Shown: positions 10,998 through 35,665 of the stretch, piece after piece
How the letters are laid out: every line of letters begins with the position of its first letter
Position numbering within the stretch: the stretch's first letter is position 1
Origin: Armatimonadota bacterium
Lineage (GTDB): Bacteria > Sysuimicrobiota > Sysuimicrobiia > Sysuimicrobiales > Humicultoraceae
Length of the DNA stretch: 64,000 bases
Direction of reading: 5' to 3'
Assembly: GCA_031459855.1 (NCBI GenBank)
Contig: JAVKHP010000001.1
Span: 2,246,906-2,310,905 of the forward strand
Made by a program: the position numbers and the translations under genes
Notes under the pieces: generated by a model
Told to the model about the DNA's origin: nothing
What the model saw: the letters and a program-made list of their open reading frames with translations, nothing else
The model's database searches: none

Positions 10998-12464
10998 ATG
11001 CCCGAGTCGTACTCGTCGTCCGTCACGCCCACCGGGGTGCGCGCTGCCACGCCCCAGGCGCGGATCGCGGGCGCGAGGACGCTGGCTCTGCGGCTCTCCG
11101 AACGCAAGATCATCCTGTTCCTCGCCGACATGGCCGCCATCGTGGCGGCCTTGCTGCTGGTGCTCCACCTGCGGTTCGGCGCGCCCCTGTCGTGGACGAC
11201 CGTGGCGCGCGACCGCGGGTGGTTCCTCTTGCTGGGCGGGCTGTGGGTGGTCTTCGCGTTCCTGCTCGACACCTACGACCTGCAGCGGGCGTCGCGCATC
11301 GCCTCGGGCGTCAGCACGGCTGGGGCGACCGCGCTGGCCACGACTGCCGCGTACCTGCTGATTCCCTACATCACGCCCCCGCTCCACCAGTCGCGCCTCA
11401 CCGCCCTGTTGTTCGTCGGCGCGATGCTCGGGCTGGTCGCCGTCGGTCGTACCGCGTATGCGGGACTGTTGGTGCAACCCACCTTTCGCCACCGCCTCCT
11501 GATCGTTGGCGCGGGGCAGGCAGGCCGGACGTTGGTGGACGTAATCCGCGCCCACGCCGGCGTCGAGTACACGGCGGTCGGATTCGTGGACGACGCGGTC
11601 GGCCACCAGCCGGCCGCCGTGCAGGGGCTGCCGGTGCTCGGCACGTCGCACGACCTGGTGCGAGTGGCCGAACAGCACGGTGTGAGCGAGGTGGTCCTGG
11701 CCATCACGCAGCGGGACCGGTTGAGCCCGGCGCTGGTACAGGCCCTCATCGACTGTCGGGAACGGGGGATGCACGTCAGCGAGATGCAGGTCGTCTGCGA
11801 GCGGCTGACCGGGCGCGTCCCGCTCGCCCATGCCGGTACCAACCTGCACGTGGTCCTCCCCGTCGGCCACGGCAGCCACCGGATCTACGCCGTCGTGAAG
11901 CGGCTCACCGACCTCGTGATCGGCCTCGTGGGACTCGCGACGCTCGTGCTGGTGCTGCCGGCCGTCGCCTTGCTCATCCGGCTCGACGGGCCCGGCCCGA
12001 TCTTCTATCGGCAGGTGCGCATCGGGCGGGGCGGTCGACCGTTCGTACTGACGAAGTTCCGGACCATGCGCGTCGACGCCGAAGACGACGGGCCGCAGTG
12101 GGCGCAACCCGACGATCCCAGGGTGACCCGCATCGGCCGGTGGCTGCGTCGGCTTCACGTCGACGAGCTGCCCCAGGCCCTCAACCTGCTCCGCGGCGAG
12201 ATGTCGTGCGTGGGCCCCCGCCCCGAGCGCCCCGAGTTCGTCGCCGAGCTCGACCGCCACATCCCCTTCTACCGCGCGCGGCACGCGGTCCGGCCCGGGG
12301 TGACCGGGTGGGCGCAGGTGAACTACCCGTACGGGCGGTCGCTGGAAGACGCGCTGGTGAAGTTGGAGTATGATTTGTATTACGTCAAACACTGTTCGCC
12401 GCTGCTGGACGCGACGATCCTGCTACGCACGCTTGCCGTGGTGTTGAGCCTGCGGGAGCGGTAG
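10998..12464 (+). CDS. Polyprenyl-phosphate sugar-1-phosphate transferase
   Basis: A 488-residue initiating enzyme that moves a sugar-1-phosphate from a nucleotide sugar to undecaprenyl phosphate, starting repeat-unit assembly. Four N-terminal membrane segments (about 30-150) are followed by a nucleotide-binding-like domain (LLIVGAGQAGRTLVDVI). The C-terminal catalytic domain starts with KRLTDLVIGLVG and carries FRQV-like IFYRQVRIGRGG, KFRTMR, HVDELPQALNLLRGEMS and VGPRPERPEF. This is the WbaP/EpsE-type polyisoprenyl glycosylphosphotransferase layout. ATG at 10998 was preferred to GTG at 10992 for spacing. The donor sugar is not readable. Confidence 0.92.
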   Translation: MPESYSSSVTPTGVRAATPQARIAGARTLALRLSERKIILFLADMAAIVAALLLVLHLRFGAPLSWTTVARDRGWFLLLGGLWVVFAFLLDTYDLQRASRIASGVSTAGATALATTAAYLLIPYITPPLHQSRLTALLFVGAMLGLVAVGRTAYAGLLVQPTFRHRLLIVGAGQAGRTLVDVIRAHAGVEYTAVGFVDDAVGHQPAAVQGLPVLGTSHDLVRVAEQHGVSEVVLAITQRDRLSPALVQALIDCRERGMHVSEMQVVCERLTGRVPLAHAGTNLHVVLPVGHGSHRIYAVVKRLTDLVIGLVGLATLVLVLPAVALLIRLDGPGPIFYRQVRIGRGGRPFVLTKFRTMRVDAEDDGPQWAQPDDPRVTRIGRWLRRLHVDELPQALNLLRGEMSCVGPRPERPEFVAELDRHIPFYRARHAVRPGVTGWAQVNYPYGRSLEDALVKLEYDLYYVKHCSPLLDATILLRTLAVVLSLRER

Positions 12465-12522
12465 GGGCGATTGCAGAGCAAGGCGGTCAGGACACCTGGA
12501 ACCCTAGGCGAGGGGACGCGGC

Positions 12523-13614
12523 GTGCCGAAGGCATTGATTACGGGCATTACGGGCCAAGACGGCTCGTACCTAGCGGAGTTCTTGCTTGCCCGGGGTTAC
12601 GAGGTACACGGCGTGATCCGCCGGGCTTCTACGTTCAGCACCGACCGCCTCGATCACCTGTACCGGGACCCTCATGAACCCGGTGTTCGATTGTTCCTAC
12701 ACTACGGCGATCTCACGGATGGCACGAACTTGCGGGTGCTGTTGGAGCGGATTCAACCTGATGAGGTCTACAATCTTGGGGCGCAGTCGCACGTTCGCGT
12801 GTCATTTGATCAGCCTGAGTACACGGCCAACGTGGTTGCTCTTGGAACCCTGCGTCTCTTGGAGGCCGTGCGCGACTACCAGCAACGTACGGGCCGGGCC
12901 GTGCGGTACTTCCAAGCAGGCTCTTCGGAGATGTTTGGTAATGCTCCTGCCCCGCAGAACGAACGCACACCCTTCGCTCCCCGCAGTCCGTATGCCGCCG
13001 CTAAGGTATTCAGCCACTACATCACCGTCAACTACCGTGAGGCATACGGATTGTTCGCGTCTAATGGTATCTTGTTTAACCATGAAAGCGAACGGCGCGG
13101 CGAGACATTTGTCAGTCGGAAGATCACACGAGCAGCCACTCGGATCGTCTTGGGTCTTCAGGAGAGACTGTACCTTGGCAACCTGGATGCGCAACGTGAC
13201 TGGGGCTATGCCCCTGACTACGTGGAGGCCATGTGGCGGATCGTCCACCACGACGAGGCCGATGATTTCGTGATTGCCACCGGTGAGTCGCGGACTGTAC
13301 GCGAGTTCCTGGACGCGGCTTTCGGCTTGTTGGGACTCGACTGGCGGGAGCATGTGGTGGTAGACCCCCGGTACTTCCGGCCGACTGATGTGGACCACTT
13401 GCAGGGTGATGCGTCCAAGGCCGCGCGCGTACTGGGCTGGCAGCCGAGGACGAGTTTTTCTGACATGGTCCGTATCATGGTCGAGCATGATCTTGAGCTT
13501 GCACGTGCCGAGCGGTCATTGCGCCAGGCGGATTATTCCGGGGATGTCCCACTACGGTTGATGAGACCACCCGTGAAGTGGCGCCGAACGCCCTGGGGAG
13601 ATAGCCAGCTGTGA
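12523..13614 (+). CDS. gmd: GDP-mannose 4,6-dehydratase
   Basis: A 363-residue short-chain dehydrogenase that converts GDP-mannose to GDP-4-keto-6-deoxymannose, the first step to GDP-fucose or GDP-rhamnose. It has the NADP-binding [15 protein letters not shown], the RRASTFST segment typical of Gmd, the active-site SSEMFG and SPYAAAK (YxxxK), and [19 protein letters not shown] at 12523 has GAGGGG 7 nt upstream. It is followed by fcl with a 4-nt overlap. It marks the left edge of the lower-G+C segment. Confidence 0.95.
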
Positions 13615-14597
13615 CCTCGGTGGACTCCTGGCACGGGATGTCGGTTGTTGTGACGGGAGGCGGGGGCTTCCTCGGCAGGGTGTTGGTAGATCGCCTGCGG
13701 CGCGCCGGTGCCAGGGTGTGCGTCCCGCGGCGCGCCGAGTACGATCTCACCGATGCCACGGCGGCGGCGCGGCTGTTTGCTGAAGCGAACCCCGAGGTAG
13801 TCTTCCATCTTGCTGCTGCTGTGGGCGGTATTGGTGCCAACCGGGACAATCCGGGCCGCTTTTTCTACGAAAACATGGCGATGGGGCTAAACGTCTTGGA
13901 GCAGGCGCGACGCCACGGGGGCGTGCGTAAGCTCGTCCTTGTGAGCACAACGTGTGCCTATCCGGAAGATGCGGAGGTCCCGTTGCGTGAGGAGGACCTA
14001 TGGCGGGGTTATCCGGAGCCCACCAACGCACCCTATGGCATCGCCAAACGCGCTCTGGTGGTCATGGCCCACGCCTATCTGCAGCAGTACGGCTTGCGGA
14101 GTATCACGCTCATTCCTGCCAATCTCTACGGCCCCGGTGACAACTTCGATCTCGAGACGTCGCACGTGATCCCGGCATTGATCAGAAAGTGTGTCGAAGC
14201 CGTGGAGCGAGGCGATGATGAGATTACTGTATGGGGCGATGGAACAGCGACGCGTGAATTCCTCTATGTGGACGACGCTGCGCGCGGCCTGTTGTTGGCT
14301 GCGGAGCGGTACGATGATCCTCATCCCGTCAATCTCGGAACGGGCGAGGAGATCAGCATCAAGGGTCTGGTGACCCTTGTTGCCGATCTTACAGGATTCC
14401 GTGGCCTGGTACGCTGGGATACGTCAAAACCGACCGGACAGCGCCGCAGGCGACTGGAGATCTCCCGGGCCTGGGAGAAGTTCGGTTTTCGGGCGGCGGT
14501 GTCCCTGCGGGAGGGTTTGCAGGCCACAATCAGTTGGTACCGTACCGAGGGCAGGCGGTTGCAAGCGCGGTCGCGTAGGCCCGGAACGAGGTATTGA
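13611..14597 (+). CDS. fcl: GDP-L-fucose synthase
   Basis: A 328-residue SDR enzyme that epimerises and reduces GDP-4-keto-6-deoxymannose to GDP-L-fucose. It has the nucleotide-binding [12 protein letters not shown] near residue 15, the family-specific [14 protein letters not shown] and FFYENM, the STTCAYP active-site serine region, and APYGIAK (YxxxK). The GTG start overlaps the gmd stop (GTGA), so the two are translationally coupled. It ends 4 bp from the stop of a convergent glycosyltransferase gene. Confidence 0.93.
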
Positions 14598-14601
14598 CGG
14601 T

Positions 14602-15705
14602 CTAGCTCAGGATGCCTGCGCGCGAGAAAATCTCTTGAAACCGATGCTCGTAGGTGTGCTCCGCAAGCACGCGGCGGTAGGCAGCTTCGCGCATCCGCTC
14701 GACGTCCGCGGGGTGCTGGAGCGCCCAGCGGATGCGTTCGATGAGATCATCCACGGTGTCGTATACGAGAATATCCCGGCCGAGTTCGTAGTAGTCGGCA
14801 AGCGCTTGCACGTGCTTCGTGATCAAGAGAGCACGACATGCGGGGACCTCGAAGTCTCGACCTTTCACTTGGTCCACACCTCCGACCGAGGCGTTAGACA
14901 GGTTGAGGTTTACTTCGGTCTCGTTGATGATCTCCACGGCCCGCCGCGTGGAGATCTTGCCACTCCGCCACCCGTACCCGAATGTCTTCACCGGGAGGCC
15001 GGCGGCACGCAGGCGCGCGATGACTTGCCGGCGGTTGCCGTGGGGCTGACCGATGAACGTTATGGGAAAGCGTCTTGGCCTGTCGAGCGGGCGGTAGAGC
15101 CTGTGGTTGACGCCCCACTGTGAACGAATCACCCGCGGCATGCCCGCGGCATGGTATTTCGGCACGGCCTGCGGATCGGTCGTGATCGCCCACGAGAAAT
15201 GACGTGCCCAGCGTCGTGAGAATGAGTCAAATCGCCAGTGATCATCCGTGAACCAGTTGAATGTCACGCAGCCCAGGCGTTGGAGCTCTTCAACCGCGTC
15301 CGGCGGAAAGTCGTCTTTGAAAAGGACGAAGAATGCTATGTCCGGTCTTAGGCGAAATGCGGCCTCCACGAGGAGATCTCCCGCACGCTGGCGGCCGAAG
15401 GTGCGCACCAGTGTGAGGGAGTCGAGGCGTATGATAGCGAACCCTAGTTGCATTAGGACCGGCAGGAAGTGGTTTTCCTCGTAGGAGTAGCCACGTGCGG
15501 GATTACCATAGTCGAACCTGGGAGCCACGTACAACAGTCGGATGCCCGCGGCTCGACCGCCTGGCTGTTGAGGGATCACCGGAAGCACGCCGTGTGCGAT
15601 CGTTCTGTCGAGATGTGTCTCAACGTGCATCTGGCGGGTAAGGCACTCTATGAGCTGCATGGCTGCGCGGCGCCAGTAGTACGGATGCGTGATGTAGCGC
15701 CTCAT
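14602..15705 (-). CDS. CgeB-like glycosyltransferase
   Basis: A 367-residue GT-B type protein. The N-terminal half has LLYVAPRFDYGN and the FNWFTDDHWRF segment seen in CgeB/spore-coat-type glycosyltransferases. The C-terminal half has ITFIGQPHGNRRQVI, GYGWRSGKIS, NLNLSNAS and FEVPACRALLITKHV, the donor-binding pattern of Glyco_trans_1_2 proteins. It lies alone at the 3' end of the minus-strand group of the island, 37 bp downstream of the family 2 glycosyltransferase. The specificity is unknown. Confidence 0.78.
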   Translation of the reverse strand: MRRYITHPYYWRRAAMQLIECLTRQMHVETHLDRTIAHGVLPVIPQQPGGRAAGIRLLYVAPRFDYGNPARGYSYEENHFLPVLMQLGFAIIRLDSLTLVRTFGRQRAGDLLVEAAFRLRPDIAFFVLFKDDFPPDAVEELQRLGCVTFNWFTDDHWRFDSFSRRWARHFSWAITTDPQAVPKYHAAGMPRVIRSQWGVNHRLYRPLDRPRRFPITFIGQPHGNRRQVIARLRAAGLPVKTFGYGWRSGKISTRRAVEIINETEVNLNLSNASVGGVDQVKGRDFEVPACRALLITKHVQALADYYELGRDILVYDTVDDLIERIRWALQHPADVERMREAAYRRVLAEHTYEHRFQEIFSRAGILS

Positions 15706-15742
15706 GGTTCCTACGCGTCAGAGTCTGCCGGGCATAAGCCGC

Positions 15743-16573
15743 CTATCGGAGCTTCTGGATGCCGCGAGCATGTGCTGTTATGCGCCGGGTAAGTGTGCCG
15801 ACGGCTGCGTCCGCCGGCCCGTACGCCCGTGCCAGCATGTAGGCCCCGCAGGTCGCAGCCAGCGGCGGAATGGCCTCCCACCACCGCCCTAGGAGCCTGG
15901 CGGCCTCAAGCTGTGCGTCCAGGCGCGCACGCAGTGCCCACGCGCGTGGTCGACGGCTGTAGCTGTGGGGGAGGACTCTGTATGTGACCAGCACCCGGGG
16001 GATCACCGCTAGCTTCCACCTGCACGCCATTCGAATCCACAGTCGATAGTCCTCATTGGGCCCCTCCGGGTAACCTCCTGCTTCGCGGTACGCGGCATAT
16101 CTGAACATCACGGAGCTGTGCACGAACGGGTTGTCCCACAGCAAATAACGTCGAAGACTGTGGTCCTGCGTCGGGGGTTGGAACTGGTATGTACGGCCGT
16201 CCGAGGTTTCTAGGCGGGCGTAACTTCCGACCAAGCCGACATCGGCATGTCGTTCCAGGTAGTGGACCTGCACCGTGAGGCGCTCTGGGTGAGCGACGTC
16301 GTCGGCGTCCAACCGCGCGACGTAGATCCCGTGCGCGTGGCTGCATCCCAAGTTTAGGGCCTTGGCCACGCCGCCGTGGGGTTGCCGGAACACACGGACA
16401 CAGGGATTCTTGATGCGTTCTACAATGGCTACCGAGTCGTCCGACGACCCGTCGTCCACGATGATGATTTCCATCGGCCGCCAGGTTTGCTGCAGTAGGC
16501 TAGCCACGGCACCCTCGATGGTCGCAGCGGCGTTGTGCATGGGCACCACGACGGATACCAGGGGTGCACTCAT
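15743..16573 (-). CDS. Family 2 glycosyltransferase
   Basis: A 276-residue GT-A enzyme with LVSVVVPMHNAA, IIIVDDGSSDDS, the metal-binding YVARLDADDVAH and the NEDYRLWIRM acceptor-site motif. It is similar to small capsule or EPS glycosyltransferases. The ATG start overlaps the preceding ligase/polymerase stop as ATGA, which decides the start over an in-frame upstream ATG at 16636. It is probably co-transcribed with the flippase and ligase/polymerase upstream. Confidence 0.88.
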   Translation of the reverse strand: MSAPLVSVVVPMHNAAATIEGAVASLLQQTWRPMEIIIVDDGSSDDSVAIVERIKNPCVRVFRQPHGGVAKALNLGCSHAHGIYVARLDADDVAHPERLTVQVHYLERHADVGLVGSYARLETSDGRTYQFQPPTQDHSLRRYLLWDNPFVHSSVMFRYAAYREAGGYPEGPNEDYRLWIRMACRWKLAVIPRVLVTYRVLPHSYSRRPRAWALRARLDAQLEAARLLGRWWEAIPPLAATCGAYMLARAYGPADAAVGTLTRRITAHARGIQKLR

Positions 16574-17904
16574 GCGGAAGCCGACCATCTCGGTCGGTGC
16601 ACCTGACATCCGGCAGCCAACCCCAGGAAGACCCAAAAGGTGAGGTTGTCAAACAGCACGTTGAAGGTGGCCCAGATCACGAACGCAGCCGCTAATCCCT
16701 TGATGCACAGGTCCCGGATGCGTTCCTTCGCTGGAGTGTCGGCCGCCAAGTGGCGCAGAAGCAACCAGCCCCACAGGGTCGTGAACCCAACGAAACCCAA
16801 AAGCCCGGCATCGAGCCACGCCTGCAAAAAGGAATTCTCCACGTGGTTAGCGGTCTTGGCGCGGAGATTGATGTCTTGCACGACCGCGGGCACTCGTCCT
16901 GGCCCAATACCGGTGAGAGGATGGGTGGCGATCTGTCGCGTTGCGAGCTCAAGTAACTTGATACGGTCTGGCACATTCTCTTCTCGATTTTCCAATCGCA
17001 TCACAGTCATGCGTTTGTACAATCGCTCCTTGATGGTTGCTGGTTGATCGAATGGTAAAGTCGGAGATGTTACGGTGATGTCCGCAAGGAGAATTGCGAG
17101 AATTGCCGTGCAGCCGATCGCGAACAGCCGCAGGACGTCTCCACGGTGTAACAGCCTGTCCCGAGCGAGCCCCGCTAACACCACCGCCAGGCCAACTAGA
17201 AGGCTAAGCCAAGTGGCACGCGATTGGGAGAGCACGATAGCTGCCGTCGTCATCCCCGTCAGGATGGTCCATATCCAGACGGCCCGTGCCGCCACGGTCT
17301 TAGCAAAGAATATCAGGTGGAAAAACAGCAAGAGGAAATACAGTGCGTCGGCATTGCGGGTGGATGCCGTATACCGAATTCCAAAATACCCGAGCGCATG
17401 TTGGTCTGGCTCTCCGATTACACCGGTATAGAACCCTACGATCCCGTACGCCAGGAGCGCGAGCAAGGTCCCGGTAAGGCCGTTCCATACCAGTGCCCGG
17501 GGTGTGTGCGTGAGCGCCAGGGTGAGAACGGGTACTGCCAATGGCAGGAGGGCCGGCCGCCACGCGGCCTCGAGCGGGACCTTCCCGGCGTTGACGACAT
17601 AACTCACCACTGTCCCAAGGGAAAGCAATGCGGGCGCGGCGAGGAATGCAACCGCGTCTGATGTGCTCACGTGCAGAGGACGGCGAAAGACTTGTATGGC
17701 CACCACAAGCGCGAGTGGTATAGCGAAAAGGTAGGGAAGCGGCGCGCCACTAGCCAGAGGTATTCTGATCTGCGGAACCGCATGCGTCCACAGGGACAGG
17801 ATTAGTGCCACCGTAAGGCCACGCACGATGCGTGCTCTCCAGGCGCTGCTCGTCGTTACTTCGACCGCTGACGTGTCCATTTTAGAGGGGCTCCCCGCGG
17901 TCAT
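16570..17904 (-). CDS. O-antigen ligase/polymerase-type membrane protein (Wzy/WaaL)
   Basis: A 444-residue polytopic membrane protein with about ten hydrophobic helices and a large loop around residues 270-350. The loop carries the Wzy_C features RIKLLELATRQIATHPLTGIGPG and a later NHVENSFLQAWLDAGLLG. It sits between a Wzx-like flippase and a glycosyltransferase, so a repeat-unit polymerase role is plausible and the upstream family member (9694-10893) may be the ligase, or vice versa. The family is confident, the division of labour is inferred. Confidence 0.82.
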   Translation of the reverse strand: MTAGSPSKMDTSAVEVTTSSAWRARIVRGLTVALILSLWTHAVPQIRIPLASGAPLPYLFAIPLALVVAIQVFRRPLHVSTSDAVAFLAAPALLSLGTVVSYVVNAGKVPLEAAWRPALLPLAVPVLTLALTHTPRALVWNGLTGTLLALLAYGIVGFYTGVIGEPDQHALGYFGIRYTASTRNADALYFLLLFFHLIFFAKTVAARAVWIWTILTGMTTAAIVLSQSRATWLSLLVGLAVVLAGLARDRLLHRGDVLRLFAIGCTAILAILLADITVTSPTLPFDQPATIKERLYKRMTVMRLENREENVPDRIKLLELATRQIATHPLTGIGPGRVPAVVQDINLRAKTANHVENSFLQAWLDAGLLGFVGFTTLWGWLLLRHLAADTPAKERIRDLCIKGLAAAFVIWATFNVLFDNLTFWVFLGLAAGCQVHRPRWSASA

Positions 17905-17935
17905 GGATGCACCAAGGGGGTTGGGCGAGCGGCGG

Positions 17936-19546
17936 TCATAGACGGAGCAGCCTCGTTACGGCCGCCCGTTCGCCAGGGTGCAGGGTCCTCGCCCACGTCC
18001 ACCAGATGAGCACGAGCAGCACTATGGCGATACCGACGACACGGTGAGTCGTCGGTACGGGCAGCCAGTAATAGACGATGCTCCAGGTCACACACGCGAC
18101 TACTACCGGTACCGCCACGTGTTGCAGCGGACCTCGTAAGTCCATCCCCGCGAACAGGGGCAACCGTTTCGATAGCCATAATAGTATTGCAGTCTCAAGC
18201 ACAAAACGGCCTGACCAAGCGGCTGCGGCTCCGTTAGCACCGGCCGCATGCACCAGCCAGAGCAACGCCACCACATAGAGGGGTGCCTCAACGACGTGCA
18301 GCTTGGCTGCCACCTCCGGAGAGCCGATGCCGTGAATCAGCGTCATCGGCACTACGCCTATTACTTGAAACGCCGCCCCCACCGCAAGCAGTTGCAGCAC
18401 GGAAGTGCTATGGACGGCGACGCCAGCTCCAACCCATGCCTTGAGGAGATCGGGGGCCAACACCGCCGCCAACCCGAAAATTGGTCCGGTGATTAAGAGC
18501 CCCAGTCTTATCGCCCGGACAAACAGCAAGGCCAGCCGCTCCCGATCGTGGTTGCCGCTCAGGGCGCTGAATGCAGGAAACAGCACGGCGGCCATGCTCC
18601 CCGCTACCAGGCCCAGCCGCGCAATCAATTCGGCCGGTACTGCATAGTACGCCAGATCCGCCATCGGTTGCAGCGTCCCAATGATGACACGATCCCCATA
18701 AGTCAGCATGACGCTTGCAAGTCCGGAGATCATCACCCAGCGACCGAATCCCAGGAGACGCCCGATGTCCTTGCCTCGCAACGGACTCACCGGTACTGTG
18801 AGGGACAGCACCCGGACGGCCCCAACGAGAAGAGCGATGACCAGCGTCGCGCGTGCAGCCAGGAGAGCGAGCGTGATCGGAGGCAGGAGCCATCCGGCCG
18901 CGACGCCCATGACTGGAACCAGGAAGGACGACGCGCTGGAGGCAGCCTTGGCCAATGCGGCGATATCGAATCGCTGCGCGGCTTCGAGCGTTCCGCGAAG
19001 CGAGTTGGTGACGAACATCAGTGGAAGCAGGAAAGCTGCCAGTCTCAACGCCACGATAGCCTCAATCTGCATAGCGGAGGACACGCGCAGTACGTGTAGA
19101 ACCAGCAGAGGCGTCAACAGCGCCATGATACCCGAGATGGCGAGCCCGACGAGGACCTGTCCAAAAACAGTCGTCCAGACCAGTTGCGACACGGCACGCG
19201 TATCACCGCGTCCCAGCGCCTCGGCGACGAACTTCGTCACTGCACTTGCCAGTCCCAAGTCGAAGATGGTCAGCGCGCCGGTTACCGTCCACAGAAAGAC
19301 GAGGAGTCCAAAGCGTTCTGTCCCCAGGCCGCGGAGGATGATGGGCACACTGACCATGCCGACGACCAGGGGAAGCGCCTGACCAATGATGTTGAGAAGG
19401 CCGTTGCGCACGAGGAGTGCACCGCTGATTTCCACTGCCGGAGGAGCCGCACTGCGCAGTCCGGGTCGGTGCGGCGGCTGCTTCTCCGCCCCGGGGGCCG
19501 ATAGCGTGGCGGCATGTCGAGGGGCGGTAGCATGAGGATTCTCCAT
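17936..19546 (-). CDS. Wzx-like polysaccharide flippase
   Basis: A protein of about 536 residues of the MATE/MVF/PST clan with roughly twelve to fourteen membrane helices, beginning at ISGALLVRNGLLNIIGQALP and including GTERFGLLVFLWTVTGA. Such proteins flip lipid-linked repeat units across the inner membrane. The start is uncertain. The ATG at 19546 makes its 5' end overlap the divergent glycosyltransferase start by 15 bp. An internal GTG at 19435 would remove the overlap and trims a non-conserved Ala/Pro-rich leader. Neither start has a clear ribosome-binding site. Confidence 0.82.
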   Translation of the reverse strand: MENPHATAPRHAATLSAPGAEKQPPHRPGLRSAAPPAVEISGALLVRNGLLNIIGQALPLVVGMVSVPIILRGLGTERFGLLVFLWTVTGALTIFDLGLASAVTKFVAEALGRGDTRAVSQLVWTTVFGQVLVGLAISGIMALLTPLLVLHVLRVSSAMQIEAIVALRLAAFLLPLMFVTNSLRGTLEAAQRFDIAALAKAASSASSFLVPVMGVAAGWLLPPITLALLAARATLVIALLVGAVRVLSLTVPVSPLRGKDIGRLLGFGRWVMISGLASVMLTYGDRVIIGTLQPMADLAYYAVPAELIARLGLVAGSMAAVLFPAFSALSGNHDRERLALLFVRAIRLGLLITGPIFGLAAVLAPDLLKAWVGAGVAVHSTSVLQLLAVGAAFQVIGVVPMTLIHGIGSPEVAAKLHVVEAPLYVVALLWLVHAAGANGAAAAWSGRFVLETAILLWLSKRLPLFAGMDLRGPLQHVAVPVVVACVTWSIVYYWLPVPTTHRVVGIAIVLLVLIWWTWARTLHPGERAAVTRLLRL

Positions 19547-20665
19547 ACGGTTGAATTCTACCATCCGCGAGTCGGCGGTGCCGAGCGAGTGGTGCAGCGC
19601 ATCTCCGAGGGATTGGCTGCCCGGGGTCATGAGGTAGTGGTCGCCACCGGCGAGGATCCCGATCGGTCGTTGGGTCGACTCAATGGCGTTGAGGTGGTCT
19701 CGTTTCGGGTTGCTGGGAACCTTGCCCGCGGCCTGCGAGGTCAGGTAGCTGAGTACCAGGAGTGGTTGCGACGCCAGTCATTTGACGTTGTGCTGAACTA
19801 CGCGGCACAGGTCTGGCCTACAGATGCCGCACTACCGCTATTGCGGGACCTGCGGGCGGCGCGCGTGCTGGCACCGTGCGGGTTTTCCGGACTGCACGGT
19901 CCCCGGCGCATCGTATACTGGTCGTACTACCGCATGTTGGCCCGACAGCTGTGCGACTACGATGCGGTGATATGTCACAGCACGAGCACAGCAGACACAC
20001 GGTTCTGTCGTCGATGGGGCCCTGTTATGCAGGCGGTGATACCCAACGGCGCCGACAGCGCAGAGTTCGAGAGCGCACCTGCAGGGTTCCGCCGCTGTCA
20101 TAACATTACGACACAATATATGCTGCTACACGTAGGAAATCATTATCAAGTCAAGGGGCATGACGCTCTCCTGAGGATGTTTTCGTCCCTGCGAGCCGTG
20201 GACGCGACGCTCGTGATCATCGGCGGGCCGCCTCGGGGCGGTCGGTCGTGCTGGGAGACCTGCCAGCGAGCTGCAGCGCGTGACGGGCGCGTGCGTTTGC
20301 TGAGCGGTCTGTGTCGTCGTGAGGTGGTAGCCGCATACCGGGAGGCGGACGTCGTGCTGCTGACGTCGAGGTTTGAGGTTGCCCCTCTGACCTTGGTGGA
20401 AGCGATGGCGGCTGGCGTACCGTTTGTTTCCTACAACGTTGGCAACGCTACGGAATTAGCAGGAGGCCTCGTCGTGAACACGGCGGAGGAGATGGCGAGA
20501 ATCCTTCGCGACCTCCTGGAGGACCACGATCGGCGGCGTCGCCTGGGCGAGGAGGGGCGGCAGGCCCATCGGCACATGTTCGAGTGGGAGCGAATCATCG
20601 ACCGCTACGAAGAATTTTACAGCAGGGTGTGGGCCACGGCACGATCGTCGCGGGGAATCCGATGA
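19532..20665 (+). CDS. Family 4 glycosyltransferase
   Basis: A 377-residue GT-B enzyme. The N-terminal YHPRVGGAERVVQRISEGLA is the classic acceptor-domain start, and the C-terminal domain has LLHVGNHYQVKGHD, VIIGGPPRGG, the retaining-enzyme motif SRFEVAPLTLVEAMAAGVPFVS, and a following NATELAGG. ATG at 19532 has GAGGGG upstream. It is divergent from the flippase and coupled by ATGA overlap to the next glycosyltransferase. The sugar is unknown. Confidence 0.88.
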   Translation: MRILHTVEFYHPRVGGAERVVQRISEGLAARGHEVVVATGEDPDRSLGRLNGVEVVSFRVAGNLARGLRGQVAEYQEWLRRQSFDVVLNYAAQVWPTDAALPLLRDLRAARVLAPCGFSGLHGPRRIVYWSYYRMLARQLCDYDAVICHSTSTADTRFCRRWGPVMQAVIPNGADSAEFESAPAGFRRCHNITTQYMLLHVGNHYQVKGHDALLRMFSSLRAVDATLVIIGGPPRGGRSCWETCQRAAARDGRVRLLSGLCRREVVAAYREADVVLLTSRFEVAPLTLVEAMAAGVPFVSYNVGNATELAGGLVVNTAEEMARILRDLLEDHDRRRRLGEEGRQAHRHMFEWERIIDRYEEFYSRVWATARSSRGIR

Positions 20666-30065: not shown

Positions 30066-30875
30066 ATGCCCCAGGTGCACGCGCGCGACCTGCTCGACAT
30101 CGCCATCGTCACGCTGCTCGTCTACCAGGTGCTCTGGCTGATCCGCGGGACCCGCGCGGTGCAGCTGGCGATGGGCATGGCCGTGCTCTTCGCCGCCTAC
30201 GTCGCCAGCCGGGTGCTGCAGTTGACCACCCTGCAGTGGATCCTCTCGTACCTGGGGGTGGTGATCCCCATCGCGATGCTGGTGATCTTCCAGCCCGAGC
30301 TGCGGCGCATGCTGGAGCAGCTCGGGCGCGGGGGGGTGTTCGCCGCGCGCTTTGGCGGCGAGCTGGGGCGCGAGGAGACGATCCGCTTGGTCAACGACGT
30401 GGCGCGGGCGTGCCGGGTGCTGTCGGGGCGGCGCACCGGCGCCCTCATGGTGCTGGAGCGCCGCACCGGCCTCAACGACGTGGTCGAGTCGGGCATCAAG
30501 CTCGACGCGCAGGTCTCGGTGCAGCTCCTCATCACGCTCTTCTTCCCCAACACTCCTCTGCACGACGGCGCCGCCGTCATCCGCGGCAACCGGCTGGTCG
30601 CGGCAGGCTGCCTGCTCCCCCTCTCGGAGAACCCCCACCTGAGCCGGACACTGGGCACCCGCCACCGCGCCGCGCTCGGCATCAGCGAGGCCACCGACGC
30701 CGTGGCGGTGGTGGTGTCGGAGGAGACCGGCGTGATCTCCCTGGCGCAGGACGGCCAGCTCACGCGTGGGCTCTCCGAGGAGGAACTGAAGGTGGCGCTG
30801 CTGGGGTTGCTGGCCCAGCCCGCCCCCCGCGCGCCGGCCCTGTGGCCGTGGCGACGCGCCTCCCGCTCGGCATGA
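30066..30875 (+). CDS. cdaA: Diadenylate cyclase CdaA
   Basis: A 269-residue membrane enzyme that makes cyclic-di-AMP from two ATP. About three N-terminal membrane helices (1-80) precede the DAC domain, which has NTPLHDGAAVIRG (the DGA motif) and GTRHRAALG (the RHR motif). c-di-AMP controls potassium, osmotic balance and cell-wall growth. It stands in the classic cdaA-cdaR-glmM order, 7 nt after argF and overlapping cdaR by ATGA. Confidence 0.95.
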   Translation: MPQVHARDLLDIAIVTLLVYQVLWLIRGTRAVQLAMGMAVLFAAYVASRVLQLTTLQWILSYLGVVIPIAMLVIFQPELRRMLEQLGRGGVFAARFGGELGREETIRLVNDVARACRVLSGRRTGALMVLERRTGLNDVVESGIKLDAQVSVQLLITLFFPNTPLHDGAAVIRGNRLVAAGCLLPLSENPHLSRTLGTRHRAALGISEATDAVAVVVSEETGVISLAQDGQLTRGLSEEELKVALLGLLAQPAPRAPALWPWRRASRSA

Positions 30876-31267
30876 GGCACTGGCGGGCAGCCGTCCTCTC
30901 GGAGCGCATGCGGCTGCTGGCCCTGTCGCTGGTCATCGCCGTGACCATGTGGTACTACGTGAGCACGACCCTGGGGCCGGCGGCGCAGGCGCCGCTGCGG
31001 GTCGTGCTGGTGCGCAACGTCGACGTGGTGGTCTCGGGGCTGGCTCCCGGGTGGACGGCGGCCGTGACGCCGGCCCGGGTCGACGTCGAGATCCGTGGGC
31101 CGGAGCCGTTGCTGGTGCTGCGGGTGGCCGACGTCCGGGCCATCGCCGAGGTGGGTGCGCTCGGGCCCGGCGTGCACCAGGTGGCGCTGCGGGTGCAGAT
31201 CCCCGACGGTGTGACCATGGTGCGGGTCACGCCGCCGGCCGTCCAGGTCACGCTGACGCGGCCCTGA
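30872..31267 (+). CDS. cdaR: CdaR/YbbR-domain regulator of CdaA, short form
   Basis: A 131-residue protein: one N-terminal membrane helix (RLLALSLVIAVTMWYYVS) and what looks like a single extracytoplasmic YbbR domain ending with VRVTPPAVQVTLTRP. Firmicute CdaR has several YbbR repeats, so this is a minimal version. CdaR binds CdaA and adjusts c-di-AMP synthesis. The assignment rests on the helix, YbbR-like pattern and position between cdaA and glmM. Confidence 0.85.
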   Translation: MRHWRAAVLSERMRLLALSLVIAVTMWYYVSTTLGPAAQAPLRVVLVRNVDVVVSGLAPGWTAAVTPARVDVEIRGPEPLLVLRVADVRAIAEVGALGPGVHQVALRVQIPDGVTMVRVTPPAVQVTLTRP

Positions 31268-31270
31268 CCC

Positions 31271-32602
31271 ATGGCGCGGCTGTTCGGCACCGACGGGATC
31301 CGTGGCGTGGCCAACGCCGACCTGACGCCGGAACTGGCCTTTCGTGTGGGGCGGGCGGCCGGCGCGGTGCTCGGCGGCCAGGTGCCCGTGGTCATCGGCC
31401 GCGACACCAGGGTCTCCGGGCCGATGCTGGAGGCTGCGCTGGCCGCGGGCCTGTGTTCGGTCGGCGTGTCTGCGGCGCTGGCGGGGATCCTGCCCACCCC
31501 GGCGGTGGCGTACCTGGCTCGCGCCCAGCAGCGCAGCGGCGTGGTCGTCTCGGCATCTCACAACCCCGTGGAGGACAACGGCATCAAGCTGTTCGGCGCC
31601 GACGGCTTCAAGCTGCCCGACGCGGTGGAGGAACGCATCGAGGCGTGGCTCGCGCGGGACGACCTGCCGCGGCCCACGGGCACGGGGCTGGGGACGGTGG
31701 TGCCGTTGCCGGACGCGGAGGATCGCTACCTGGGCTACCTGCTGGGCCTGGCGGGTGGCCGGCTCGACGGCGTGCGCGTGGTCGTCGACTGCGCCTATGG
31801 GGCCGCCGTGCGCGTAGCACCCCAGCTGTGGCAGGCGCTGGGCGCCACCGTCATCGCGCTCCACGCCGTGCCCGACGGGGCGCGCATCAACGTGGGGTGC
31901 GGCTCGACCCACCTGGCGCCGCTCCAGGCCGCCGTGCGCGCGCACGGTGCCGACGTGGGCTTCGCACACGACGGCGACGCCGACCGCGTCCTGGCCGTGG
32001 ACGAGCGCGGGGAGGTGGTGGACGGCGACGCCCTCATGGGGATCTGCGCGCTGGACCGCTGCACGCGCGGCTTGCTGCCGGGTGCCGTGGTCGTCGCCAC
32101 GGTGATGAGCAACGCCGGGCTGGAGGACGCCCTCCGCGCAGCGGGGGTGCGGCTCGAGCGCACGCGCGTGGGCGACCGCTACGTCCTCGAACGCATGCGC
32201 GAGGTCGGCGCCGTGCTGGGCGGCGAGCAGAGCGGCCACCTGGTGTTCCTGGACCGCGCCACGACCGGCGACGGGCTCGTGACCGCGCTGGAGGTCGTCA
32301 ACGTGATGCTGCGCACCGGCCGGCGGCTGTCGGAGCTGCGGGCGGCGATTCCGCGGTACCCGCAGGTCCTGGTCAACGTGCGCGTGCGCCGGCGCGACGG
32401 CGTGCTGGAGGCCCCGGAGGTGGCGGCGGCGATCCGGGCCGCGCAGGGGCGGTTGCGCGACGGCGGCCGCATCCTCGTGCGGCCGTCGGGGACCGAGCCG
32501 GTGATCCGCATCATGGTGGAGGCCACCCGACAGGATCTGGCAGAGGCGCTCGCCGCCGAGGTCGCCGAAGCGGTGGCGCGCGCTGCGGGAGGGACGCCGT
32601 GA
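31271..32602 (+). CDS. glmM: Phosphoglucosamine mutase
   Basis: A 443-residue enzyme that converts glucosamine-6-P to glucosamine-1-P for UDP-GlcNAc. MARLFGTDGIRGVAN is the GlmM start, VVSASHNPVEDNG carries the phosphoserine, AHDGDADRVL binds Mg, GGEQSGH recognises the sugar, and RPSGTEPVIRIMVE binds phosphate. Its position after cdaA-cdaR matches the conserved regulatory complex in which CdaA and GlmM interact. It is coupled to wecG by GTGA. Confidence 0.96.
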   Translation: MARLFGTDGIRGVANADLTPELAFRVGRAAGAVLGGQVPVVIGRDTRVSGPMLEAALAAGLCSVGVSAALAGILPTPAVAYLARAQQRSGVVVSASHNPVEDNGIKLFGADGFKLPDAVEERIEAWLARDDLPRPTGTGLGTVVPLPDAEDRYLGYLLGLAGGRLDGVRVVVDCAYGAAVRVAPQLWQALGATVIALHAVPDGARINVGCGSTHLAPLQAAVRAHGADVGFAHDGDADRVLAVDERGEVVDGDALMGICALDRCTRGLLPGAVVVATVMSNAGLEDALRAAGVRLERTRVGDRYVLERMREVGAVLGGEQSGHLVFLDRATTGDGLVTALEVVNVMLRTGRRLSELRAAIPRYPQVLVNVRVRRRDGVLEAPEVAAAIRAAQGRLRDGGRILVRPSGTEPVIRIMVEATRQDLAEALAAEVAEAVARAAGGTP

Positions 32603-33360
32603 CCGCGGTCGTCCAGAGCGCGCCTGCGCCGCCGCGGCACGTGCTGCTGGGCACCGGCGTGCACGCGGTGACGCTCGCCGAAGCGCTGGCCTGGATCGAC
32701 GCCGCCATCGCCCGCCGGCAGCCCGTCTACGTGGTGACGCTGAATGGCGCCATGCTCGTCCAGGCGGCCCGGGACGCGGCGCTGCGGGCGCTCGTCAACG
32801 GCGCAGGCCTCGTCACCGCCGACGGGGTGGGCGTGCTGCTGGCCGCGCGCATCCTCGGCGCGCGGCTCGCGCAGCGGGTGGCCGGGATCGACCTGGCGCT
32901 GGCGCTGTGCGAGCGCGCCGCGCAGACCGGGTGGCGGGTCTTCCTGCTGGGGGCCGCACCGGGCGTGGCGGCTGAGGCGGCGGCGGCCCTGCGCGCCCGC
33001 TTTCCCGGGCTCGCGATCGCCGGCGTCTGGCACGGGTTCTTCACGCCGGCGGAAGAACCCGCCGTGGTGGAGGCGATCCGCGGGGCGGCGCCGGACGTGT
33101 TGCTGGTGGCCATGGGCGTGCCCAGGCAGGAAGCGTGGATCGGCCGCTGGCACCACGTGCTGGGCGTGCCCGTCTCCATGGGCGTCGGCGGCGCGCTGGA
33201 CGTGATCGCGGGACGCCTGCCCCGTGCCCCGCGCTGGATGCAGCGCCTGGGGCTGGAGTGGCTGTACCGGGCCCTGCGCGAGCCGCGGCGCTGGCAGGTC
33301 GTGCGCACCATCCCGCCGCTGTTCTGGCTGGCCGTACGTGAGCGGTGGCGGCGCCGGTAG
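32599..33360 (+). CDS. WecG/TagA/CpsF family glycosyltransferase
   Basis: A 253-residue GT26 enzyme. It has PVYVVTLNGAMLVQA, VTADGVGVLLAARILG, GIDLALALCERA, VFLLGAAPGVA, LVAMGVPRQEAWI and the SMGVGGALDVIAGRLPRAPRWMQ block. Family members add N-acetylmannosamine(uronate) or similar residues to undecaprenyl-linked GlcNAc in teichoic acid or enterobacterial antigen synthesis. The exact sugar here is unknown. It shares a transcript with glmM, which supplies amino sugar. Confidence 0.9.
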   Translation: MTAVVQSAPAPPRHVLLGTGVHAVTLAEALAWIDAAIARRQPVYVVTLNGAMLVQAARDAALRALVNGAGLVTADGVGVLLAARILGARLAQRVAGIDLALALCERAAQTGWRVFLLGAAPGVAAEAAAALRARFPGLAIAGVWHGFFTPAEEPAVVEAIRGAAPDVLLVAMGVPRQEAWIGRWHHVLGVPVSMGVGGALDVIAGRLPRAPRWMQRLGLEWLYRALREPRRWQVVRTIPPLFWLAVRERWRRR

Positions 33361-33490: not shown

Positions 33491-33542
33491 CGGGAGAAAC
33501 GCAGAAGGGGAGGAGGTGAGCGAGTCTCGTCGCGTGCCGCAA

Positions 33543-33708
33543 GCGCCTGAACCCGACGTCCGTCGGGTTGACGAGGGAGGGGAACTCGGAGCGTTCGGCG
33601 GGTGACCCTAGGCCCGGTCCGGGCCTGCACCACCTCAGCGCATCGCCTCGCGCCTGAGGCAAGGCCGCCTACAAACCCCGGAGGCGACTCCGGCCCAAAG
33701 GGCGGACC
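33543..33708 (+). ncRNA. glmS self-cleaving ribozyme/riboswitch
   Basis: The mRNA leader of glmS matches the glmS ribozyme core. The 5' GCGCC follows the scissile A at 33542. P1 is AACCCGACG/CGTCGGGTT (33550-33569), followed by TTGACGAGG (33568-33576) and TTCGGCGGGTGACCC (33594-33608). The AGGCCC/GGGCCT stem is at 33610-33626, then TGCACCACC and the CCTCAG/CTGAGG stem. The 3' part is AAGGCCGCCTACAAACC, a CCGGAG/CTCCGG hairpin, and a CAAAGGGCGG strand that closes P4. With bound glucosamine-6-phosphate this RNA cuts itself and lowers glmS expression. It ends about 110 nt before the glmS start. Confidence 0.92.
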
Positions 33709-33817
33709 AGGACACGCCAGGCACGTCTTCGCTGCCCGGTCCCATGGGACTACCGGGAAGTGTCGCCGGTTGCCGGCCAGACCGGGCACCCCAGGTTCAC
33801 CGCTGGAGGGTGCACAC

Positions 33818-35665
33818 ATGTGCGGCATCATGGGGTACGTGGGCACACGTCCGGCGCTGCCGATCCTGCTGGACGGTCTGCGCCGGTTGGAGTACCGGGG
33901 CTACGACTCCGCAGGCGTGGCCGTGCTGGAGAACGGACACATCGCGATCCGCAAGGCGGCGGGCAAGCTGCAGCGGCTCGAACAGGTGGTCAGCGTCGCT
34001 CCCCTGGGCGGCTCGGTGGGGATCGGGCACACCCGGTGGGCCACCCACGGGCAACCCACCGACGCCAACGCCCACCCGCACAGCGACTGCACGGGCCGCT
34101 GCGTGGTCATCCACAACGGGATCATCGAGAACTACCTGTCGCTGCGCGAGGCGCTCCAGGCGCAGGGGCACCGGTTCGCCTCCGACACCGACACCGAGGT
34201 GCTGGCGCACCTGATCGAGGCCGCCTACGCCGCGCTGCCGCCCGGCACCCCCGGACGGTTCGAGCTGGCCGTGCGTCAGGCGGTACGCCGGGCACGTGGG
34301 GCCTACGCCATCGTGGTGATGCTGGCCGACGAGCCCGACCGGATCGTCGCCGTGCGCATGATCAGCCCGCTCATCGTGGGCATCGGCCAGGGCGAGATGT
34401 GGCTGGCGTCCGACATCCCCGCGCTGCTCCCCTACACGCGCGACGTCCTGGTGGTCAGCGACGGCGAGATGGCCGTCATCGAGCCGCATCGCGTGCGCCT
34501 GCTGGACCTAGAGGGCCGGCCGGTCGACCGCCGTCCCCAGCACGTCACGTGGGACGCGGAGATGGCCGAGAAGGGCGGGTACCCCCACTTCATGCTCAAG
34601 GAGATCTACGAGCAACCCCGGGCGTTGCAGGACACGATGATGGGCCGCCTGGACCTGGACGACCGGATCGAGCTGGACGGCGTGGTCTTCCCCGACGGTT
34701 TCGTCGAGCGGCTCGAGGGGATCTGGCTCACCGCCTGCGGCACCGCGTACCACGCCGGGCTGGTGGGCCGGCGGCTCATCGAGCAGCTGGCGCGCATTCG
34801 GGTGGAGCCCGACCTGGCGTCGGAGCTCCGCTACCGCGACCCGCTCATCCAGGGGACGACGCTGGCGGTCGCCATCAGCCAGTCGGGCGAGACGGCCGAT
34901 ACGCTGGCGGCCGCGCGGGAGGCTCGGGCCCGCGGCGCCCGGCTGCTGGCCGTGACCAACGTGGTGGGCAGCACGCTGGCCCGCGAGGCCGACGACGTGC
35001 TCTACGTCCGCGCCGGTCCCGAGATCGCCGTGGCGTCCACCAAGGCCTACGTGACCATGCTGGTGGCGATGCAGCTGCTGGCGATCGACCTCGGCCTGCG
35101 CCGCGGTGTGCTGGCCCGCGACGTGGCGCGGCGGCTCGTGGCGGGCCTGCGCCGCCTGCCCCAGCTTGCCCAGGAAGTGCTCCAGCGCGCCGACGCCGTG
35201 GCGGCGCTGGCGGCGCGGCTGGCCCACGTCGAGCATGCGTTCTTCATCGGCCGCGGTCTCGACTACGCCGTGGCCATGGAGGGTTCGCTCAAGCTCAAGG
35301 AGATCTCCTACCTGCACAGCGAGGCGCTGGCCGCCGGCGAGTTGAAGCATGGCACGCTGGCGCTGGTGACGCCGGAGACGCCGGTGTTCGCCCTGGTCAC
35401 CCAGCGGGCGATCTACGAGAAGACCCTGGGCAACATCCAGGAAGTCCGGGCACGGGGCGCGGAGGTCGTCGCCGTCGCCTACGACGACGACGGCGAGATC
35501 GCCAAGCACGCGCACACGGTCCTGCGCATTCCGCCCGTGGACGACCTGCTGGCGCCGGTGCTGGCCATTATCCCCCTGCAGCTGTTCGCCTACCACGTGG
35601 CGGTGCTGCGCGGCCACGACATCGACCAGCCGCGCAACCTCGCCAAGAGCGTGACGGTCGAGTAG
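33818..35665 (+). CDS. glmS: Glutamine-fructose-6-phosphate aminotransferase
   Basis: A 615-residue enzyme that makes glucosamine-6-P from fructose-6-P and glutamine, the entry step to UDP-GlcNAc. The N-terminal glutaminase starts MCGIMGYVG with catalytic Cys2 and has GHTRWATHG and HNGIIENY. Two SIS isomerase domains follow, with TACGTAYHAGLVG, AISQSGETADTL and ELKHGTLALV, ending in the conserved LAKSVTVE. ATG at 33818 follows GGAGGG. Expression is very probably controlled by the ribozyme in its leader. Confidence 0.97.
   Translation: MCGIMGYVGTRPALPILLDGLRRLEYRGYDSAGVAVLENGHIAIRKAAGKLQRLEQVVSVAPLGGSVGIGHTRWATHGQPTDANAHPHSDCTGRCVVIHNGIIENYLSLREALQAQGHRFASDTDTEVLAHLIEAAYAALPPGTPGRFELAVRQAVRRARGAYAIVVMLADEPDRIVAVRMISPLIVGIGQGEMWLASDIPALLPYTRDVLVVSDGEMAVIEPHRVRLLDLEGRPVDRRPQHVTWDAEMAEKGGYPHFMLKEIYEQPRALQDTMMGRLDLDDRIELDGVVFPDGFVERLEGIWLTACGTAYHAGLVGRRLIEQLARIRVEPDLASELRYRDPLIQGTTLAVAISQSGETADTLAAAREARARGARLLAVTNVVGSTLAREADDVLYVRAGPEIAVASTKAYVTMLVAMQLLAIDLGLRRGVLARDVARRLVAGLRRLPQLAQEVLQRADAVAALAARLAHVEHAFFIGRGLDYAVAMEGSLKLKEISYLHSEALAAGELKHGTLALVTPETPVFALVTQRAIYEKTLGNIQEVRARGAEVVAVAYDDDGEIAKHAHTVLRIPPVDDLLAPVLAIIPLQLFAYHVAVLRGHDIDQPRNLAKSVTVE

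Follow-up and report, generated by a model that had tools for sequence, protein, structure and literature searches.

The leader of glmS in this Armatimonadota bacterium poses two questions: does it hold a genuine glmS ribozyme, as a first-pass annotation proposed, and, if so, how would such an RNA silence its gene in an organism in which RNase J, on which textbook glmS control relies for destroying the cleaved message, is not detected? Within the window, i.e., the whole 64,000-nt stretch of DNA analyzed, an Rfam search found glmS (RF00234) to be the single RNA family above its gathering score. The match, at 33531-33717 on the + strand, covers the full length of the model (1-167) and scored 38.5 bits (E 1.7e-5), 1.5 bits above the cut-off of 37. 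The genome (3.19 Mb, 4 contigs) carries one copy, located in the glmS 5' leader 100 nt before the ATG at 33818. The Rfam alignment showed a complete catalytic core, a P1 that is short, and 38 nt inserted between P3 and P4; the last two features, with the core unbroken, likely explain a score that in relatives reaches 89 bits. Folding energy was ordinary for the composition of the sequence (z -1.4), and the minimum free energy fold was uninformative by itself. We therefore relied on comparison with 43 genomes of the same phylum, belonging to one order and seven families (f1-f7, the window's own being f1). The parts of the ribozyme, and the nearby features that bear on it, are as follows.

33534-33537, + strand: GUGC of the leader, ahead of the cleavage site; proposed helix with its complement GCAC at 33627-33630
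33542-33543, + strand: predicted self-cleavage site, A33542 and G33543 being A(-1) and G1 in the Rfam alignment; A(-1)GCGCC is invariant in 28 aligned relatives
33543-33713, + strand: ribozyme body (P1, P2, P2.1, P2.2, P3, insert, P4, P4.1, P3.1)
33544-33549, + strand: 5' strand of P2.2, CGCC, with bulged U33548, and G33549; pairs with 33596-33600 (scheme of PMC7125110)
33550-33569, + strand: P1 hairpin, 20 nt
33570-33576, + strand: invariant GACGAGG; C33572-A33574 pair with 33586-33588 to form P2.1
33578-33609, + strand: P2 (33578-33581 with 33606-33609), enclosing the second strands of P2.1 and P2.2; an A-U pair is changed to G-C in f5
33610-33626, + strand: P3 hairpin, whose loop GUCC (33617-33620) forms the P3.1 pseudoknot with GGAC (33710-33713)
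33627-33662, + strand: insertion between P3 and P4, GCACC plus a hairpin at 33633-33659; neither the Rfam consensus nor f4 has it
33663-33708, + strand: P4 (33663-33669 with 33701-33708, one bulged A), with the P4.1 hairpin at 33678-33693
33805-33809, + strand: GGAGG, from its sequence the likely Shine-Dalgarno of glmS

G33570 is presumably the catalytic guanine (G33/G40 numbering). The annotation had placed the ribozyme at 33543-33708; its 5' end agrees with A(-1)/G1, and the 3' end moves to ~33713 since P3.1 extends past 33708. In core sequence, in P1-P4, in the P3.1 pseudoknot, and in the predicted P2.1 and P2.2 pseudoknots, the RNA resembles the RF00234 ribozymes of B. subtilis, B. anthracis, and T. 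tengcongensis. It differs from them in being G+C-rich, a peculiarity that the annotation had rightly pointed out, in its extra hairpin between P3 and P4, in the wecG gene of its gene run, in a possible pairing of leader and insert before cleavage, and in a host in which RNase J is undetected.

The gene order in the window is argF, cdaA, cdaR-like, glmM, wecG, ribozyme, glmS, acpS. Profile matches bear out the cdaA-cdaR-glmM-wecG run that had been read before the ribozyme, with the cdaR-like gene just under its cut-off:

30066-30875, + strand: cdaA, diadenylate cyclase (TIGR00159, 250 bits)
30872-31267, + strand: cdaR-like (YbbR) gene (PF07949, E 0.0015, just below cut-off; assigned also by position)
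31271-32602, + strand: glmM (TIGR01455, 567 bits)
32599-33360, + strand: wecG/tagA/cpsF-family glycosyltransferase (TIGR00696, 169 bits)
33818-35665, + strand: glmS, glutamine-fructose-6-phosphate transaminase (TIGR01135, 806 bits)

A scan of the wecG-glmS interval found no promoter or terminator. The physical link between c-di-AMP signaling and glmS that the annotation pointed out is not supported as a novelty; it is ordinary, because the established B. subtilis operon has the same order, cdaA-cdaR-glmM-ribozyme-glmS, with the ribozyme inside it and likewise placed before glmS (PMC6171935). The cdaA, cdaR-like, and glmM genes lie upstream of glmS throughout the families examined. What is peculiar is only the presence of wecG between glmM and the ribozyme, seen directly before the ribozyme in f1 and f3 alone.

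The description of the host as apparently diderm is probably right: Omp85 (PF01103) was found in 39/43 phylum genomes, including the window's own, and an outer membrane is likely in the lineage, but LptD (PF04453) matched in 0/43, and these genomes show no sign of the standard LptD export route. Elsewhere in the window, positions 12001-20000 have a G+C content of 61-62% vs. 70-74% around most of the window, and by eye the end of a sugar-transferase-like gene and the start of a nucleotide-sugar dehydratase-like gene lie at ~12000-12600; this region is possibly an acquired polysaccharide cluster.

RF00234 matched in 30/43 phylum genomes, in 27 of them above the cut-off, and a pattern search recovered the core in two more (G013 and G027, the latter copy cut by a contig end). 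GlmS was found in 38/43 genomes (there was no glmS match in G005, G006, G012, G014, and G042), and 32 of these 38 carry the ribozyme. The remainder are the four members of genus g7 (G007-G010) and G011, which have glmS without the ribozyme, and G002, which has an assembly gap. In an alignment of 28 trimmed cores, A(-1)GCGCC, GACGAGG, UCGGCGG, and other core columns were invariant. For 36 core pairs taken from the published scheme (P2.1/P2.2 after PMC7125110; for P3.1, loop 3 against the strand that follows P4), 99.3% of cells were paired and 19 pairs showed double changes. The corresponding values were 84.5% and 12.0 for shuffles and no more than 45.5% and 7 for slid versions; the halves of P4 and P3.1 were hand-picked for pairing, which biases these counts to structure, and sequence anchors defined the remaining helices. 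Double changes occurred in each of P1, P2, P3, P4, and P3.1, with the same caution for the hand-picked P4 and P3.1. The P3.1 variants comprise GUCC/GGAC, UUCC/GGAA, GCCC/GGGC, CGGC/GCCG, and UGAC/GUCA, and one pair of this helix appears as GC, UA, and CG types among relatives. P2.1 and P2.2 are formed in all aligned sequences and none of their pairs varies; for these helices and most of P2 the signal is conservation, not covariation. The ends of P1 are paired in every sequence despite lengths of 20-172 nt. The match above cut-off and this conserved fold, found at the same place across the phylum, confirm by sequence comparison that the leader in the window is a true member of the known family RF00234.

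Several loci (L023 1381-1565, L013, L015, L017, L029) have large P1 insertions, 60-172 nt in length and in some cases palindromic or repeat-like, and P4.1 of L017 holds an insertion of ~80 nt with the stem ends still paired. It is possible that these points in P1 and P4.1 are landing sites for small repeats. Outside the phylum, the control genome of the non-Firmicute Deinobacterium chartae also gave RF00234 above the cut-off. Six loci from a genome-contig search, whose query lay off the GlmS frame, had no glmS ribozyme above the cut-off, and viral contigs yielded one distant GlmS only.

RNase J (TIGR00649) scored above the cut-off in 20/43 genomes, all in f4, f5, and f7, and tblastn with an f4 RNase J found it in 20/20 genomes of these families and in 0/23 of f1, f2, f3, and f6, a set that includes genomes 93-99% complete. 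In the window's genome neither method detected it. An intact ribozyme without detected RNase J thus occurs in 13 genomes of three families (f1, f3, f6), and both are present in 19. In B. subtilis, RNase J1 degrades the cleaved glmS product (PMC7125110; PMC11780869); since RNase J was not found in our organism, the last step of repression must differ from that of B. subtilis. The window's genome encodes both RNase Y and RNase E/G (732 and 488 bits, respectively), and its sole RNase J-like protein is a metallohydrolase of 470 aa that carries an RMMBL domain and scored 71 bits with TIGR00649 vs. a cut-off of 400. This divergent RNase J-like protein, of metallo-beta-lactamase fold, lies at G000:C1:1286526-1287350 (L103 964-2376), and similar weak matches occur in relatives.

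The fold and its place before glmS are seen directly in these genomes; for the ligand, the cleavage, and the decay route, we infer the following. GlcN6P, the product of GlmS, would bind the P2.1/P2.2 core and drive self-cleavage between A33542 and G33543, predicted to leave a glmS message with a 5'-OH. That end would most likely be trimmed or bypassed, and RNase Y or RNase E/G would then cleave the message. In B. subtilis, 2 nt are trimmed from the 5' end of the glmS product independently of RNases J1, J2, Y, and III (PMC11780869), and trimming of this kind, independent of RNase J, could yield an end that feeds RNase E/G or Y. Alternatively, decay might fall to the divergent beta-CASP-like metallohydrolase, which from its sequence could be a stand-in for RNase J. 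We hold this explanation as a whole, i.e., a glmS ribozyme in the leader, GlcN6P-driven cleavage, and decay by a route other than RNase J, to be highly probable.

The strongest competing explanation is that the RNA cleaves and its product stays stable without RNase J, with repression exerted by severing the leader and any upstream cdaA-wecG transcript from glmS, or through an effect on translation. Lack of detected RNase J in f1, f2, f3, and f6 favors this, as do E. coli data in which 5'-OH ribozyme products are stable as long as RNase J1 is not added (PMC7967978), and the genes, which share one strand and show nothing resembling a terminator in the wecG-glmS interval, would suit it. That reporter host resembles ours in being without RNase J, and its product was stable; unlike that artificial host, however, the RNase J-less state is natural here and the ribozyme has been retained. 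Against this reading, the window's genome has RNase Y and RNase E/G, 5' trimming independent of RNase J exists in B. subtilis, and the Shine-Dalgarno and start codon stay on the product, so that cleavage alone need not reduce translation. A stable product appears an unlikely outcome, albeit one to be taken seriously.

A second alternative holds that in f1, f3, and f6 the ribozyme is a decaying relic in RNase J-less hosts, recognizable but no longer regulatory. Scores in f1 and f3 are indeed low (27-57 bits vs. 50-89 in f4), and genus g7 has lost the element completely: glmS abuts wecG there and the ribozyme is missing (L059-L062, last 50 nt before glmS). In the gap of G007, a 29-nt segment is identical at 27/29 positions to ~33645-33673 of the window, where the inserted hairpin ends and the 5' strand of P4 lies, a match equaled by 0/1000 shuffles; the scar measures 19 nt in G010, and none was seen in G008. 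Since g7 is nested beside the ribozyme-bearing G001 and G000 in the GlmS tree with full support, its absence is a derived loss. In some g7 genomes the wecG stop codon lies within the scar region or next to it. Against the relic stand the invariant catalytic core of f1, f3, and f6, compensatory changes that continue in P1, P3.1, and P4, and the retention of the ribozyme by the 13 RNase J-less genomes of three families; we regard decay as very improbable. A chance or G+C-composition match, to which the narrow margin of the score and the ordinary folding energy might point, is ruled out for practical purposes by the conservation and covariation that genomes across the phylum show in this RNA at its constant position upstream of glmS.

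Two further features stand out among these families. The first is the extra hairpin 3' of P3, present in f1, f3, f5, and f6 and absent in f4; in f1 and f3 double changes were seen at all five of its outer pairs, whose halves were hand-picked. Just 5' of the cleavage site, the f1/f3 leader reads GUGC, extended e.g. as CGGUGC or CCGUGC, and GCAC with the matching extension is located after P3. In f5, leader UGGGU faces ACCCA in the hairpin loop, and L026 has UGGCG/CGCCA instead. Complementarity of leader and insert exceeded 500/500 leader shuffles and 498/500 leader swaps between genomes, but only 471/500 swaps within families. In a fixed register, the f1/f3 helix was 89.6% paired, with two double-change pairs and the inner four pairs invariant, and the f5 helix 83.3% paired, also with two double-change pairs. 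The window can form only 4 bp in that register (33534-33537 with 33627-33630), most f1/f3 relatives can form 5-7 bp, and L021 and L030 show complementarity of 6-7 bp; such pairing was not evident in f6 (L023). This moderate evidence points to a possible new helix in f1, f3, and f5, joining the leader 5' of the cleavage site to sequence beside or in the extra hairpin.

The second feature is confined to f5, where in 7/7 genomes a fructose-1,6-bisphosphate aldolase/phosphatase gene lies between the ribozyme and glmS (e.g., L098 7974-9104; also L090 and L091), ~50-80 nt before glmS. Two of these proteins scored 526 and 530 bits with NF041126 (the two scanned), and PF01950 was found in three. In the other families this gene, where present, is located elsewhere. 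By the sequence assignment, then, the f5 ribozyme lies ahead of one enzyme that produces fructose-6-phosphate and of GlmS, which consumes it, and from spacing and strand the two genes are probably co-transcribed.

Joined together, these observations would describe a ribozyme lineage that works naturally without RNase J, its substrate strand held by a new helix beside an added hairpin, and, in the sister family f5, ribozyme control of an FBP aldolase/phosphatase-glmS operon; we advance this combined picture tentatively, as somewhat short of an even prospect. The 13 ribozyme-bearing genomes without RNase J and the 19 with it constitute a natural comparison for other routes of repression. The pairing of leader and insert, if real, would be a new means of tethering the cut strand. 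In f5, the gene pair ties the same signal to substrate supply: if co-transcription is true, GlcN6P would shut off both GlmS and the enzyme supplying its substrate, fructose-6-phosphate.
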